Part shown: one piece after another, positions 7,140 through 18,059 of the stretch | How the letters are laid out: the number at the start of each line of letters is the position of its first letter | Numbering within the stretch: the first letter of the stretch is position 1 | Virus record (IMG/VR): IMGVR_UViG_3300017719_000256 | Coordinates: 1-21,754 of that record | Strand: one strand, 5' to 3' | Length of the DNA stretch: 21,754 nt | DNA from: a virus | Notes under the pieces: generated by a model | Told to the model about the DNA's origin: nothing | Seen by the model: only the letters and a program-made list of their open reading frames with translations | The model's database searches: none | Position numbers and translations under genes: made by a program

Positions 7140-8102
7140 TTATTTTTCGTCTTGGTCTTCTTTTTGTTCTAATCCTTGTCCAAACTGAACTGCTGCCACC
7201 TCTCTGATTGACATCCCTGCGTACTGTAGTATCTTTAATACTAACGTAGGCTCGTCAGATATACTCAACTCAAAGTCTTGAAAGTCAGATTGTGATTGGT
7301 CAAATGAAGGCTCTCCTCCAATTAACTCAACGTATGTCCACTTAGGGTCGTTAGGGTACCTAATGTATTGACATTGAACCGCACCTATAGTATTTATACT
7401 TGGTGGGAACAATGAAAGGTTAGGCTCCTGTTGTGTGTATGCAGGGAACATTGTTGACGGTGCAGTTAGTAAGGAGTTGTTCAACATAGTTATCTTGCTA
7501 TGCGTAACCTTCTCTGCTTCGTTTACTACACTATCATCGTACACCACATACCCCTCAGGGAAGTTTTGAAATATATCTGCAGGATTGCCATTACCATCCG
7601 TTAATACAAGGGTATCTGTCCCTGTTAACGACTGAACAAATGCTGTCTGATTCGTTGTGGTATTACCTACAATATCACCTACATTAACACCTGCTGATAC
7701 AAAGTTAATTGTGTTGTCTACTAAGTCACCTACCTGTACTGATGTATTGCTTCCACTTGCTAATAGTCGTGTGTATACTAATACCTTGTTTAATAGATAG
7801 TAGTCATCGTTTGTTGTCGTTTGACTTGGTGTAAAAAATTTATTAGATATGTTGTGTAATAAAAAATTGTCTACTGAGAATATATTTATTACCTCCTCAT
7901 ATCCTTTTGTTATATCTGCATAGCCTGTCCCTGAGGCTCTTGCATTCTCTTTGTTTATCTGATAGTTATACTGATAAAAATAATCTTCAAAAATATCTAA
8001 CTGTGCCTGCTTAGCGAATAGGTTAAAGTCAGATGGAGAAATGTATCCGTAATTATTTTTATTTAGTATAGACAATACTGTGTTCCTAACCGAGTTTATC
8101 AT
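7140..8102 (-). CDS. crAss-like connector/ring protein candidate with beta-module insert (320 aa)
   Basis: The N-terminal helical domain begins MINSVRNTVLSILNKNNYGY and continues with PSDFNLFAKQAQLDIFED (residues 23-40). This is a conserved opening I associate with crAss-like head-tail connector proteins. Residues about 124-190 form a beta-rich module (VGDLVDNTINF, VGDIVGNTTT, LVLTDG, DIF, EGYVVYDD) that recurs in the 167-residue protein at 20718-21221. The C-terminus is acidic and glutamine-rich (GQGLEQKEDQDEK). Its start lies only 17 nt downstream of a TATCTTTG promoter element, so it opens a transcript that continues through the tail genes to its left. Function is inferred from family resemblance and position after the capsid genes. 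Confidence 0.75.
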   Translation of the reverse strand: MINSVRNTVLSILNKNNYGYISPSDFNLFAKQAQLDIFEDYFYQYNYQINKENARASGTGYADITKGYEEVINIFSVDNFLLHNISNKFFTPSQTTTNDDYYLLNKVLVYTRLLASGSNTSVQVGDLVDNTINFVSAGVNVGDIVGNTTTNQTAFVQSLTGTDTLVLTDGNGNPADIFQNFPEGYVVYDDSVVNEAEKVTHSKITMLNNSLLTAPSTMFPAYTQQEPNLSLFPPSINTIGAVQCQYIRYPNDPKWTYVELIGGEPSFDQSQSDFQDFELSISDEPTLVLKILQYAGMSIREVAAVQFGQGLEQKEDQDEK

Positions 8103-8119
8103 CTGTAAATACTTTCATA

Positions 8120-8127
8120 CAAAGATA
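8120..8127 (-). promoter_or_regulatory. Bacteroidota-type -7 promoter element TATCTTTG
   Basis: On the minus strand TATCTTTG matches the Bacteroidota -7 consensus TAnnTTTG exactly. It lies 17 nt before the ATG of the 320-residue connector gene and three bases (GTG) after the T-tract of a terminator. No clear -33 TTTG is seen at the usual spacing, where the terminator hairpin arm sits instead. It would drive the connector and tail genes with a leader of roughly 10 nt. An identical copy lies at 8732-8739. Confidence 0.65.
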
Positions 8128-8130
8128 CAC

Positions 8131-8161
8131 AAAAAAAAAGACCCCTTCATTTGAAGAGGTC
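8131..8161 (-). terminator. Intrinsic terminator after the 171-aa gene
   Basis: The minus-strand transcript would read GACCTCTTC-AAAT-GAAGGGGTC, a nine-pair stem with one G-U pair and a 4-nt loop, followed directly by nine T residues (8139-8131). It lies 24 nt past the stop of the 171-residue gene and directly abuts the promoter at 8120-8127. Confidence 0.85.
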
Positions 8162-8185
8162 TCATTGATATTGATTAAATATAAC

Positions 8186-8701
8186 CTATGGAGTTATGTC
8201 CACTATAGTTACATTTGCAGGGTTAGGGGCAGGCGTCTGAAATGGGTCTATTGCAGGTACAGGAAAACAGTCAGCATTATTTAGAATGGCATTATCCCCA
8301 ATTGCAACTGTAATAGAATTTTCAAGCCCTCCTGTATAGTAAATAATATTTACAGGATTAGCAGCAGCAGGACTAACAGTTATTTGATACTCACAGCTCG
8401 GGTCTCCCGGACCTGCGTCTCCACCACCTTCTTCAGCACTAACAGAGTCGATAGTAGTACCGAAAGGTATGCTAACAACAGATACCGCCTGTGTCCAAGG
8501 AGATTGAAATGCCTCTACCTGTGCACTATTAATGCTGTCAATAAGAGATTGAGACATATTTGTGCCCGCAAAAAAAACAGTAATTGTCCCGTTGGTAATA
8601 GCTAAAGCCTCAGGGCTACTAATATTCATAAAGCACCCGTCAACAATAGGGAATAATACCGTGCCGTTATTTGTAGTTTCGAATGATAAAAATTTACTCA
8701 T
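8186..8701 (-). CDS. Conserved phage protein (171 aa), candidate virion or head-decoration protein
   Basis: I do not recognise a named family. The N-terminal half (MSKFLSFETTNNGTVLFPIV, then ITVFFAGTNMSQSLIDSINS and AQVEAFQSPWTQAVSVVSIP) resembles small marine-phage virion proteins that carry a helix followed by a W-T-x-A/V-V strand. An acidic, glycine-rich linker EEGGGDAGPGDPSCEY follows at about residues 90-105. The second half is Pro/Asn/Ala-rich and ends ANVTIVDITP. There is no membrane segment or catalytic motif. The gene has its own promoter (8732-8739), with an intrinsic terminator before that and another after the gene, so it is a separately controlled single-gene transcript between the capsid and connector genes. 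That suggests a need for different, perhaps high, copy number, as for a decoration or fibre protein. This last point is inference. Confidence 0.65.
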   Translation of the reverse strand: MSKFLSFETTNNGTVLFPIVDGCFMNISSPEALAITNGTITVFFAGTNMSQSLIDSINSAQVEAFQSPWTQAVSVVSIPFGTTIDSVSAEEGGGDAGPGDPSCEYQITVSPAAANPVNIIYYTGGLENSITVAIGDNAILNNADCFPVPAIDPFQTPAPNPANVTIVDITP

Positions 8702-8731
8702 AATAAAAAAAGTTTAAGTATTAATAAAAGA

Positions 8732-8739
8732 CAAAGATA
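8732..8739 (-). promoter_or_regulatory. Bacteroidota-type -7 promoter element TATCTTTG
   Basis: TATCTTTG on the minus strand, 30 nt before the ATG of the 171-residue gene and three bases (GTG) after the T-tract of the preceding terminator. It matches TAnnTTTG. The 20-nt string TTTTTTTTGTGTATCTTTGT is identical here and at 8119-8138. No -33 element was found at normal spacing. Confidence 0.65.
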
Positions 8740-8742
8740 CAC

Positions 8743-8770
8743 AAAAAAAAGAGGGGTCGTTAAACCCCTC
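8743..8770 (-). terminator. Intrinsic terminator after the 245-aa gene
   Basis: On the minus strand GAGGGGT-TTAACG-ACCCCTC forms a seven-pair, GC-rich stem with a 6-nt loop, followed directly by eight T residues (8750-8743). It lies 22 nt past the stop of the 245-residue gene and is joined to the promoter of the next gene. Confidence 0.87.
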
Positions 8771-8792
8771 CTCATCCATTATAACCTTATGT

Positions 8793-9530
8793 CTATAATT
8801 GTTTCTCTAAAAACACTAACACATCTACGCCATCGTCAGACTTAAACCAATCAGCTAAATACTGAACAGGGTCTGCACCAAATGGTATCGTTGTTAATCT
8901 TTTTTTGTTTCCTTCTAAATTAAAGTATACCTCTCTCCTCTTATTTCTAAATGCAATAAGCTTATTATCAAAGAACAACTGAACAGTTGACTGTAGTTTT
9001 AATTTAGGGTCAGATAATATATTTAAAAATGTACTTGGATTTTGTTTTGCAAATATAAGTACATCTCTTCTTAACTCAGATGATGTCATCTTAGATACAT
9101 CCTTGTTAAATACAACACGACCAAGATTTTCAAGCTGCTCTATGCTAAGTGACTTAGCTTCGATTAACGCATCCACCTCAGCAGTAAGCTGCTCTACCTC
9201 TTCTGCAGCATCCTTACCATAATCAACCTCAATAAATCGTTTACCGTTTAGAGGGTGGTAGTGTAAAAACTGTTGAAGCACAGGATTTGTTCTTGCAACT
9301 CTAAGCATACCATCTTCAAAGATTACAGGTGTAACAACAGCGTTACCGTCCTGTTCATCTTCAAAACAGCTTTTTTGATTGATAGCATATCTTATGGTTC
9401 TGTTAACTCCTTGCTCCTCGTCAAAGTACAGCAGTGCTGAATTACGAGAGCTTCGTGAAGGAATAATGCACGACAATGGTGCTCTGTCTCTTGTGAGTTT
9501 ATAAACTCTGTCTTTTAATTCTAATTTCAT
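8793..9530 (-). CDS. Conserved phage protein of unknown function downstream of the capsid gene (245 aa)
   Basis: Notable segments are PLSCIIPSRSSRNSALLYFD (residues 18-37), EEQGVNRTIRYAINQKSCFE (38-57), DEQDGNAVV, then a helical part (EEVEQLTAEVDALIEAKSLS) and EVYFNLEGNKKRLTTIPFG near the C-terminus. I recall this pattern as widespread immediately after the capsid gene in marine Bacteroidota phages, but with no established role. The protein is soluble and mixed alpha/beta with no catalytic motif. It is separated from the capsid gene by a terminator-like hairpin and from the next gene by a strong terminator. Its start follows the leader AAAATTTAATCAAA, nearly the same as that of the scaffold gene, which points to co-ordinated translation. 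A head-completion or assembly role is a guess from position. Confidence 0.72.
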   Translation of the reverse strand: MKLELKDRVYKLTRDRAPLSCIIPSRSSRNSALLYFDEEQGVNRTIRYAINQKSCFEDEQDGNAVVTPVIFEDGMLRVARTNPVLQQFLHYHPLNGKRFIEVDYGKDAAEEVEQLTAEVDALIEAKSLSIEQLENLGRVVFNKDVSKMTSSELRRDVLIFAKQNPSTFLNILSDPKLKLQSTVQLFFDNKLIAFRNKRREVYFNLEGNKKRLTTIPFGADPVQYLADWFKSDDGVDVLVFLEKQL

Positions 9531-9551: not shown

Positions 9552-9589
9552 AAAAATAAAAAAGTTAGGAGTGCCTAAGTAGACACTCC
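9552..9589 (-). terminator. Terminator-like hairpin after the major capsid gene
   Basis: The minus strand reads GGAGTGTCT-ACTT-AGGCACTCC, a nine-pair stem including one G-U pair, then TAAC and a broken T-tract TTTTTTATTTTT. It lies 15 nt past the capsid stop. The four-base spacer and the A inside the T-tract make it weaker than the two terminators further left. It may allow partial read-through to the 245-residue gene, for which no separate promoter was seen. Confidence 0.6.
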
Positions 9590-9604
9590 CTCCTCTTTGT
9601 AATA

Positions 9605-11053
9605 TTAGTCTTCGAACAGTACGAAGTTATTTGCACCTAATGTACAAACACATCTTTCAGACAAGAAGTGTACTTCCATCGCATCTAAAGACGATGTAGC
9701 TGCACCACCTGCAGAACCTGTAATCCAAGTCTTATATCTTCTGTCCTCAGTTTCAGAAGCTCTGTAACGAACGTGTAAGAACGGACGTTTAGCATTCTTT
9801 CCAAGAACTTGGTCATACACAGATGTTGAACCTGCAGGTACCAATAAACCGTTGATAGAACCTGTACCTGCGGCTAAACCTCCACGCATAGTTGGGTCAT
9901 TCAGATATTTCCAATCAGTCTTGTAGAAGTCATATCCTCTTCGGAATCCTGTGAATCCTAAGTTCAATGCCATTTCTTCGTCATTGTCAAACAATCCGTA
10001 AGAAGTACCACCCGGTGCACCATAAGAGTTTTGAGCAGCTAACATATCGTCAATTGCAAATCCAAAGTCTCTATCTAAGAATATTACGTTCTCTTCAATT
10101 GCTCCTTGTGCATCAAGTCGTCCGATGATAGCATCGAAGTCAGCTAATGCATTAGGAACGCCACCTGTCCATAGGTTACCTCGTTGTCCTACAGTATAGA
10201 ACACACCTTCAGAACCTTTAGCAATTCCTGCTGCCGTGTTCACAGCATTGTCCATAGGTACTGCTTCAATCATTGAAGTCTCAAGATAGTCATCGAAACG
10301 TAATCTTGTTTCGTGCTCAGACTTCATATACCAAAGGTATCCACTTGCACCGTTCTCTGTTGTTACTTCAACCCATCCAATCTGAGCCATATCAGAACCT
10401 GATACTGCGTATCTATCTTTAATGATAATTGGAGAGTTCTCGAAAATGAAATCGTCAGACTCTAAAGAACCATTCATTCCTTCAGTTCCTTTTGCAAACT
10501 CAGAACCGTAGATGAAGATAGTAACGTCTGCGTTTCCAACTCCTGAACCTGCTTGTGCAAGTCCACCTGCTTCGTAAAAAGCAATTGTAGCTTGAATAGG
10601 AGATACTGTTAAATCAACATCAGTAACAATACCTTTGTTCTCACCTAAACCACTGTTTTGGTGAACAACAACAGTCTGTCCTACTCTCAATGCGATACCA
10701 CTCTGAGCACCAAAAGGACTCGCAGTAGAAACTGCTGCATTAGGGTCATCATTGATTTGGAATACTGCTTCATCAGCAGCAGCTAATGCGGCTGTACCCA
10801 CGCTTGTATATTTAACGTGAAGTCTTCCTTGCTCTGCCCATTTTACAAGGTCTGAGTTAGAAGGCATCTCTGCTCCAACCATTCTTAAAAATGAACTAAT
10901 CGTTCTGTTTCCGTAACGTTCAAATTCCTTTTCATAAGTATCCGGAAGATACTGATTCAAGAAATCAAAGTTAGTAATGTAGTTTGTTGCCAACGGCACT
11001 TGTTGTGCGGACGGCTGTAGGTCAAAACCGGGACCTGTTAATGCTCCTGCCAT
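9605..11053 (-). CDS. Major capsid protein, crAss-like (482 aa)
   Basis: This is the shell protein that builds the icosahedral head. The N-terminal part contains LPDTYEKEFERYGNRTISSF (about residues 35-54) followed by LRMVGAEMPSNSDLVKWAEQ and GRLH. I recognise this as typical of crAss-like HK97-fold capsid proteins. Near the C-terminus VHFLSERCVCTLGANNFVLF also fits. At 482 residues it matches the size expected for that family. Residues about 120-175 (LRVGQTVVVHQNSG and following) look like a beta-rich inserted domain. The gene lies 30 nt after the scaffold-like gene, with an A-rich SD-less leader (AATTAGAAAAA before ATG), and is followed by a terminator-like hairpin, consistent with high expression. 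No cleavage site or maturation protease was identified. Confidence 0.9.
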   Translation of the reverse strand: MAGALTGPGFDLQPSAQQVPLATNYITNFDFLNQYLPDTYEKEFERYGNRTISSFLRMVGAEMPSNSDLVKWAEQGRLHVKYTSVGTAALAAADEAVFQINDDPNAAVSTASPFGAQSGIALRVGQTVVVHQNSGLGENKGIVTDVDLTVSPIQATIAFYEAGGLAQAGSGVGNADVTIFIYGSEFAKGTEGMNGSLESDDFIFENSPIIIKDRYAVSGSDMAQIGWVEVTTENGASGYLWYMKSEHETRLRFDDYLETSMIEAVPMDNAVNTAAGIAKGSEGVFYTVGQRGNLWTGGVPNALADFDAIIGRLDAQGAIEENVIFLDRDFGFAIDDMLAAQNSYGAPGGTSYGLFDNDEEMALNLGFTGFRRGYDFYKTDWKYLNDPTMRGGLAAGTGSINGLLVPAGSTSVYDQVLGKNAKRPFLHVRYRASETEDRRYKTWITGSAGGAATSSLDAMEVHFLSERCVCTLGANNFVLFED

Positions 11054-12208: not shown

Positions 12209-12231
12209 TTGATTAAATTTTTACAAAGTTA
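12209..12231 (-). promoter_or_regulatory. TAACTTTG promoter element and A-rich leader before the scaffold and capsid genes
   Basis: The minus strand carries TAACTTTG at 12231-12224, an exact TAnnTTTG match. A 15-nt leader ending in AAAATTTAATCAA follows, then ATG at 12208. No TTTG at -33 is visible. The site lies in the 51-nt gap after the portal stop, where no terminator is seen, so scaffold and capsid genes would receive read-through from upstream plus their own transcript. Confidence 0.6.
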
Positions 12232-17272: not shown

Positions 17273-17832
17273 AGCTGTAAGGTTATTGAGTGGTCGTACA
17301 TTCTCCATAGTATCTCATCGTCTACCTTAAACTCATACTCCTGTGATGGCTTGTAGCATACTACATCACCCTCCTTTAGCCCCTGAGATTTTAGTCCATC
17401 ATTTAGAATAGCAATGGTACCCATTAGAGGCTCATTGCTTATAGCTTTATATATATAGCTTTCTTTTGCAGGGATGGGTTTTATAAAACAGTAGCGGTCG
17501 TATCCGTGCCACTCACCATTTTTTTTATATGCAAAGAATTGGTCGGGGTCTAAAAAGAATATGTTCTCTTTAAAAAAACTTTTCCCGCTCTGTCTCCTGC
17601 CCTTCATATCATTGTAGAACTTAAAGACATTGTGGTGAACCAATAATACATCACCCTTTTCAATTGGACCGTTATAGTTTAGTGGTGTTTCTATTACTAC
17701 AGCCTCTCTATTAGAGGCTGACACATCCTCTTCTGATGTGCTAACTATAAACTCTATTCCTGCTATTGTCTTGGTGTTGTTATATCTTTTCTTATTTACG
17801 GGTTCTACTATAAACTGATATATTGATTTCAT
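17269..17832 (-). CDS. Candidate phage co-chaperonin with two GroES-like folds in tandem (187 aa)
   Basis: The N-terminal half (about residues 5-104) follows the GroES layout: a first strand FIVEPVNKK, a loop TKTIAGIEFIVSTS at the mobile-loop position, strand REAVVIETP, then IEKGDVLLVHHNVF like the GroES VKVGDxVxF element, ending in FFLDPDQFFAY. The second half (113-187) repeats it: RYCFIKPIPAK, a strand with MGTIAILNDG, GLKEGDVVCYKP, and EYEFKVDDEILWRMYDHSIT matching the GroES pattern of a Glu/Asp-rich strand followed by a final strand. GroES itself is about 97 residues, so 187 fits two copies. T4 gp31 shows that phages use such partners with host GroEL to fold capsid protein. The assignment is by pattern only. 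It overlaps the preceding gene by one base (TAATG). Confidence 0.55.
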   Translation of the reverse strand: MKSIYQFIVEPVNKKRYNNTKTIAGIEFIVSTSEEDVSASNREAVVIETPLNYNGPIEKGDVLLVHHNVFKFYNDMKGRRQSGKSFFKENIFFLDPDQFFAYKKNGEWHGYDRYCFIKPIPAKESYIYKAISNEPLMGTIAILNDGLKSQGLKEGDVVCYKPSQEYEFKVDDEILWRMYDHSITLQL

Positions 17833-18059
17833 TAAAAATTTATATTAAATTCAATTGACACAGGCACTGTAGATGTAAACTCCTTCCACAGTATAACCTC
17901 TTGACTTGTGCTCTCTATCCATATCTTTATAGAGTCGCTCTCATCGTAATATTTTATTAGATGAATAGTGTGACTACCGTTTAGTATCTCCTGACCTACT
18001 ATGTAGTGCATAGCTCCTGACTTGTAATCAGGTCCCACACTTATCTTACGAATATCCAT
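17832..18059 (-). CDS. Hypothetical phage protein (75 aa)
   Basis: Not recognised. The sequence opens MDIRKISVGPDYKSGAMHYI, then VGQEILNGSHTIHLIKYYDE, and appears to be a small all-beta protein with alternating polar and hydrophobic strands ending in SIEFNINF. No membrane segment or motif was found. It starts 4 nt after the tail-fibre-like 85-residue gene and its stop overlaps the GroES-like gene start as TAATG, so the two are likely translated together. Confidence 0.65.
   Translation of the reverse strand: MDIRKISVGPDYKSGAMHYIVGQEILNGSHTIHLIKYYDESDSIKIWIESTSQEVILWKEFTSTVPVSIEFNINF

Follow-up and report, generated by a model that had tools for sequence, protein, structure and literature searches.

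Two intergenic sites in a 21,754-base virus record, the whole of which we call "the window", are best explained together as copies of a fused stop-and-restart element flanking a moron-like inserted gene, a joint reading that we consider probable. At each copy, a GC-rich hairpin followed by a tract of eight to ten T's would end the upstream transcript within the T-tract, and the box TATCTTTG, three bases on, would begin a new transcript with a short leader. Judged from the sequence, restart would occur about 16-20 bp from termination, and the polymerase acting there would probably be that of the host. One element before the gene for a ring-type protein would be the common and conserved state, with a small gene carrying an element on each side coming and going by way of joints inside the element. 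Comparison with relatives brings out the anatomy of the element, its fixed position and its replaceable hairpins, its nearly fixed T-tract and box, as well as the recurrent gain and loss of the gene and junctions that look recombinant.

Genes in the window match phage terminase, portal and virion structural families in a PHROGs search. On the minus strand they are ordered terminase, portal, 374-aa, capsid-type (9605-11053), 245-aa (8793-9530), 171-aa (8186-8701), 320-aa ring-type (7140-8102), 307-aa and muzzle-type. The 320-aa structural gene belongs to phrog_14543 (head and packaging), and its "ring" label comes from that family, from its position and from comparison with crAss001, whose ring and muzzle proteins are described in PMC10172136. 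The label "scaffold" for the 374-aa gene is taken from position only, and the 245-aa gene belongs to phrog_34748, a family of unknown function. A 1533-aa gene scores 38 bits against the crAss muzzle family PF25731 (cut-off 27), and the records of the closest named relatives, Elemovirus and Pervagoviridae, do not assign them to Crassvirales. Terminase matches were found in 87 phage records, with MW202828 the nearest at 75% identity; the other 86 were below 60% and come mostly from Flavobacterium (68) and Cellulophaga (15) phages. The late regions of Elemovirus, Callevirus (Pervagoviridae) and MW202828 resemble the window in the order of the capsid, 245-type and ring-type genes.

The window contains exactly two copies of the 20-nt string TTTTTTTTGTGTATCTTTGT, at 8119-8138 and 8731-8750; they share the minus strand, and each lies in a gap between genes (8103-8185 and 8702-8792). 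Nowhere else in the window is it matched within three mismatches, and the mean number of occurrences in 100 dinucleotide shuffles of the window is 0.01, which rules out a chance repeat. An intrinsic terminator is a GC-rich stem with a run of T's directly behind it, and this arrangement is present at both copies, each of which consists of a hairpin, a T8 or T9 tract, the 3-nt spacer GTG and then TATCTTTG. At the first, or ring, copy the hairpin (8138-8163), at the end of the 171-aa gene's predicted unit, is followed by nine T's (8131-8139), by the box (8120-8127) that is the predicted promoter of the ring-type gene, and by a predicted transcript start region (8113-8115) with A, A and A at spacings of 4, 5 and 6 nt. 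At the second copy the hairpin (8748-8773), at the end of the 245-aa gene's predicted unit, is followed by eight T's (8743-8750), by the predicted promoter box of the 171-aa gene (8732-8739; consensus from PMC6847099) and by a predicted start region (8725-8727) that reads T, T and A at the same spacings. All of these features lie on the minus strand.

A terminator scan gave 11-pair stems of unlike sequence at the two copies, with a fold energy of about -16 kcal/mol each. The hairpins differ between the copies, as do the leaders, which rules out recent duplication of the gap as a whole. The presence of two copies in the window reflects the small 171-aa gene, which sits between the 245-aa and ring genes, and the flanking elements predict a transcription unit of its own for that gene. 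The initial annotation had proposed such a unit, and had also recognized the identity of the two strings and the difference between their hairpins; its span for the second copy, 8731-8770, placed the string rightly but stopped short of the end of the hairpin at 8773. Fourteen TAHHTTTG sites occur on the coding strand of the window; three are intergenic, and two of those three are the copies described here. A scan for sigma-70 type promoters (60 sites in the window, 62.1 in shuffles) was uninformative. The leaders of slot genes, for example window 8702-8730, are T-rich near the start codon (TTTTTTTATT, TTTTTTACA), and ring leaders are A-rich.

Relatives were collected by searching viral contigs with the 320-aa protein and keeping the best 80 of at least 562 confirmed stretches. 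The ring-gap set comprises 78 of these, L097 and L128 being left out because they have less than 60 nt of sequence ahead of the gene. Many of the 80 loci are near copies of one another, and the contig of L005 and L053 equals the window in the proteins compared. A strict composite was defined as a stem, a tract of T6 or longer, and a box within 8 nt; this and the other rules and patterns were settled on once the first examples were known. In this sample from the best 80 of at least 562 relatives, a TAnnTTTG box lies ahead of the ring-type gene in all 78 gaps, and 76 of the 78 pass the strict rule. The two that fail, L084 and L085, do so because a doubled T-tract parts the stem from the box. The doubled tract is common to L084 and L085, where it belongs to the single copy of an empty allele, and to the left copy of the occupied locus L086.

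Once identical 75-nt upstream sequences are merged, the 76 passing sites number 52, and among these there are 47 different hairpins. Each of positions -11 to -4 ahead of the box is T in no fewer than 51 of these 52 sites; 51 boxes read TATCTTTG and one reads TAATTTTG; T directly follows the box in 51; and the predicted start, the fifth base behind the box, is A in every one. The matched start codon stands 14-18 nt from the box in 44 sites, 24 nt in six and 20 or 21 nt in two; in the six sites with the 24-nt distance an ATG is visible 17 nt from the box. Among 54 distinct sequences, now counting L084 and L085, 52 have a stem of six or more pairs abutting the tract, compared with 49 of 1080 shuffles, and the mean strength of the hairpin, computed over the 34 nt before the tract at distinct ring sites, is about -12 kcal/mol. 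Hairpins thus appear to be freely replaced while the T-tract and box barely vary. These results agree with the view, advanced from the window alone, that only the T-tract and -7 box are conserved between copies, and the reading of the string as terminator plus -7 box recurs at the homologous gap. Two observations that might have told against that reading were not made: no coding part of the window contains the string, and it is not missing from the homologous gaps of relatives, where TAnnTTTG with a T-tract is found in 78 of 78 (from the best 80 of at least 562).

The box can be compared with known promoters of Bacteroidota, in which the primary sigma factor is reported to recognize TAnnTTTG at -7 (PMC7366714). 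In F. johnsoniae the start lies 4 or 5 nt beyond the consensus TAHHTTTG, the -33 element is barely evident, and AT-rich motifs occur at -18 and -28 (PMC6847099). A TAHHTTTG box lies upstream of a gene at both window copies, the consensus being that of F. johnsoniae and the host of the window phage a presumed one. The element shares with sigma-ABfr promoters the TATCTTTG box, an A at the expected ring start, the lack of a clear -33 (TTG in one and TTTG in none of the 52 distinct ring sites, drawn from the best 80 of at least 562 relatives), and an AT-rich tract at about -16 to -24; if transcription starts 4 nt behind the box, the T-tract would span about -24 to -16. It differs from them in having a nearly fixed T9 that would double as the terminator's T-tract, a box that is almost always TATCTTTG, and a C-rich hairpin arm in the -28 region of the ring sites, which is AT-rich in F. 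johnsoniae. The second window copy has T at 4 and 5 nt behind the box, in place of the A of the ring sites. Since the -33 element (TTTG or TTG in Bacteroides) was not found, we describe the element as working like a -7-box promoter rather than a full -33/-7 promoter. We infer termination and initiation at the element, use of the host polymerase and a role for the T-tract as the AT-rich -18 element. A box without a hairpin, TAACTTTG, lies before the 374-aa gene (12224-12231, minus strand), and similar boxes were seen in the same gap in MW202828, elemoA, phi38:1, Calle_1 and Panino, so that the box may start a capsid unit there.

The gap behind the capsid-type gene served as a contrast. In the window, the terminator scan places a hairpin there at 9567-9590 (minus strand), without a -7 box. 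TAnnTTTG is found in none of 44 distinct capsid-to-245 gaps from the same loci as the ring set; the box is therefore not a general feature of gaps, and the possibility that it is a general intergenic signal was ruled out. Hairpin-like repeats are visible by eye in the printed capsid gaps and were scored for the window only. Exactly nine T's are present in 41 of 54 distinct ring gaps compared with 3 of 44 capsid gaps, in which the longest T-run can be anything between 4 and 10. The T-tract of the element thus looks more constrained than that of a plain terminator. We take this constraint as the main support for dual use of the tract in termination and initiation, to which common descent may contribute. 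Like intrinsic (Rho-independent) terminators, the element has a GC-rich stem and then a T-run; unlike them, its T-run is more uniform than that behind the capsid-type gene, and a promoter box stands 3 nt on. The 245-aa gene behind the box-less hairpin at 9567-9590 would depend on read-through.

The fused element was found at the ring gap in five of the six named phage records that were read. These five, from Elemovirus, Callevirus and MW202828, have the same element before the ring gene and lack a slot gene. MW202828 carries it behind the capsid-type gene and before the ring gene, and elemoA 7-9A and elemoF 6-3D carry it at both gaps with a 6-nt spacer; these three differ from the window in having the element behind the capsid-type gene. 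In phi38:1 and Calle_1 the element lies before the ring gene (TATATTTG), and a hairpin alone stands behind the capsid-type gene. The ring gene of Maribacter phage Panino has TATCTTTG ahead of it without an adjacent hairpin, and a hairpin lies behind the 245-type gene. Five small annotated genes lie in the slot of Panino (L048 10710-12000), which opens with a hairpin and closes with a box.

The pattern T6-N(0-6)-TATNTTTG was sought in 12 whole records, where it has 18 distinct sites, compared with 6 raw matches to the reversed pattern; Panino has none. Nine of the sites are in ring gaps, two are in capsid gaps (MW202828 and elemoA) and seven are elsewhere. One of the seven, in G005 (L166, around 1567-1600, on that locus's minus strand), is a hairpin element. 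The 76-aa gene that it precedes has no known function and resembles window 17832-18059; the corresponding gap in the window is only 4 bases long. Four others of the seven lack a strong hairpin and have an ORF behind them, which in one case we take to be GroEL-like, and two, in phi14:2 and crAss001, have no ORF behind. The resemblance extends to crAss001 only loosely: TAnnTTTG is present in 6 of the 11 gaps examined, never at the fixed distance from a preceding hairpin and T8-T10, and at the capsid gap there is only a hairpin. The exact 20-mer was matched 49 times in 43 stretches of viral contigs, 37 times before the ring gene, 7 times before a relative of the 171-aa gene and 5 times before neither. 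In this last group, a strong hairpin and a small gene whose product begins MEKFLS are present at L024, an AT-rich hairpin at L026, and no convincing hairpin at the other three. The string is not confined to phages, a possibility ruled out by 21 stretches of bacterial genomes (18 titled Bacteroidota) that contain it; three of the bacterial stretches have a hairpin abutting the T-tract and three more have one a few bases off. At L156 3652-3671, titled as an Aliivibrio bin, an element with an abutting hairpin is followed by a phage ring gene, and this is probably a misbinned phage contig.

The slot between the 245-type and ring genes was surveyed in the 77 loci, among the best 80 of at least 562 relatives, where a 245-type gene was seen. 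It is occupied (at least 300 bases between the genes) in 18 and empty (63-164 bases) in 59, and all 18 occupied slots hold a small gene of 92-172 aa. The proteins form two clusters (BLASTP at 1e-3), one of which includes that of the window; in an alignment of eleven, M1 and K3 are invariant and one W is nearly so. On a quick tree of 78 ring proteins (19 occupied, including the window, and 59 empty), 11 changes of occupancy are needed, at least 10 of them forced by starred branches. Shuffled labels need 17.1 changes on average, which indicates that occupancy is also clustered. Every one of the 18 occupied loci passes the strict rule ahead of the ring gene. Ahead of the slot gene, 11 have the hairpin element; the other 7 have a box-like site, TATCTTTA in two of them, but no hairpin. 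These seven, together with Panino, suggest that fusion of hairpin and box is not obligatory.

The 171-aa protein had no match in PHROGs, Pfam, NCBIfam or phage records. Its structural model (pLDDT 81.6, pTM 0.53, 11 sequences) is mostly beta with one helix. Roughly the first 95 residues match, by fold, five unnamed viral proteins of 91-108 aa (E <1e-4), and no solved structure matched the model at E 0.001. From gene position we would guess that the slot protein decorates the virion. Morons are genes acquired with their own promoter and terminator (PMC2147016), and the 171-aa gene appears to be a moron-like insert that comes and goes: like morons, slot genes are single, small, placed between two late genes, and present or absent among near-identical relatives (18 of 77 occupied; the empty locus L057 shares 99% of compared flanking residues with the occupied locus L053). 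For the window's gene a promoter and terminator of its own are also predicted. Unlike morons, slot genes encode two clusters of similar small proteins rather than unrelated ones, and their flanking signals are copies of one resident stop-restart element, with the joint inside it.

The position of the joint emerges from comparison of empty and occupied alleles. In L057 the 36 bases before the T-tract are 94% identical to the left copy of L053 and 39% identical to the right, while the 18 bases behind the box are 100% identical to the right copy and 44% to the left. L085, compared with L086, has a hairpin side that is 100% left and 25% right and a leader that is 94% right and 44% left. For L107 and L106 the leader is equally distinctive (100% right, 44% left), but the hairpin side is 94% left and 83% right, a weaker case. 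The hairpin side is ambiguous when L111, L104 and L112 are compared with their nearest empty relatives, that of L087 has no match to L085, and the remaining pairs are too distant. Since these empty alleles combine the left hairpin side with the right leader, the joint lies inside the string, and the gene-less alleles look like recombinants within it, clearly in L057 and L085 and less so in L107. The suggestion that the string is a reusable cassette rather than a recent duplication is thus largely right, with the amendment that the copies flank a removable gene, and copy number follows its gain and loss. The initial annotation's question whether copies always sit between structural genes that need different dosage meets two qualifications: the box is missing from all 44 distinct capsid-to-245 gaps, and a further composite, in G005, lies ahead of a 76-aa gene with no known function. 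The two copies within one genome often differ, as in L086, L100 and L112. Homogenizing of the copies within a genome was considered, but the spacers agree in 3 of 8 distinct two-composite loci, too few for a claim.

Several other explanations were weighed. The string might be kept mainly as a recombination joint for gene exchange, its regulatory look being secondary; recombinant alleles joined inside the string and at least 10 changes of occupancy would fit, but the element is kept in 59 empty single-copy loci and the copies of one genome often differ, and we give this idea hardly any credence. It also seems very improbable that the element is a terminator only, with TATCTTTG inert and the ring unit reached by read-through or antitermination. 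Box-less hairpins do occur in capsid gaps, and transcription of the 245-aa gene beyond them must rely on read-through; against this, the box and the start A are maintained while the hairpin, spacer and leader change, and Panino keeps the box but not an adjacent hairpin. A hairpin that protects or processes RNA, stabilizing the 3' end of a processed upstream transcript without terminating it, beside a separate promoter, would suit hairpins that are strong and always upstream of the start. A hairpin abutting T8-T10 is, however, a textbook intrinsic terminator, and end protection does not need a constrained T-tract, so that we regard this account as improbable.

A phage-encoded or phage-modified RNA polymerase that reads T9-N3-TATCTTTGT as a dedicated late promoter strikes us as unlikely. 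In its favor, the motif is tighter than the host TAHHTTTG (TATCTTTG in 51 of 52, T9 in 41 of 54), relatives have very large late genes of about 11 kb (MW202828, elemoA), and crAss-like phages carry virion RNA polymerase subunits (PMC10136315). On the other hand, the host polymerase is believed to transcribe the late genes of crAss001 and phi14:2 (PMC8375218, PMC10136315), and the boxes of slot genes vary (TATATTTG, TACCTTTG, TATCTTTA) as expected of an ordinary -7 box. A bolder form of the stop-and-restart reading, which we hold as a tentative and rather doubtful possibility, is a dedicated relay: the T-tract would be selected both as terminator tract and as -18 element, and a host polymerase, having released the upstream RNA, would stay on the DNA and restart about 20 bp on. 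Capsid, accessory and tail outputs would then be coupled while their messages stayed separate, and accessory virion genes would plug in by recombination inside the relay. After intrinsic termination in vitro, E. coli polymerase can remain on the DNA and begin again from a promoter close by (PMC6978380). Recycling still lacks an in vivo demonstration and is held to be of little benefit to phages with their own polymerase (PMC11347151); a phage transcribed by the host's polymerase might profit. The element likewise has a promoter close to a terminator, at which a retained polymerase could restart; here the predicted stop-restart distance, judged from sequence, is about 16-20 bp.

Intrinsic terminators, the -7 boxes of Bacteroidota, and morons with a promoter and terminator are already known. 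What is new, as far as the open-access literature shows, is that these phages have such a fused element at a conserved position and that it serves as an accessory-gene joint; the open-access literature searched yielded no description of the element in crAss-like, Elemovirus or Cellulophaga phages. A fused stop-restart element of conserved position, with hairpins that can be freely replaced, would mark the late transcription units of phages related to crAss-like phages and would predict the starts and ends of their messages to within a few bases. It would show how accessory genes enter a structural cluster while leaving their neighbors undisturbed, and would provide a natural test case for RNA polymerase recycling after termination, a process not yet demonstrated in vivo according to PMC11347151.
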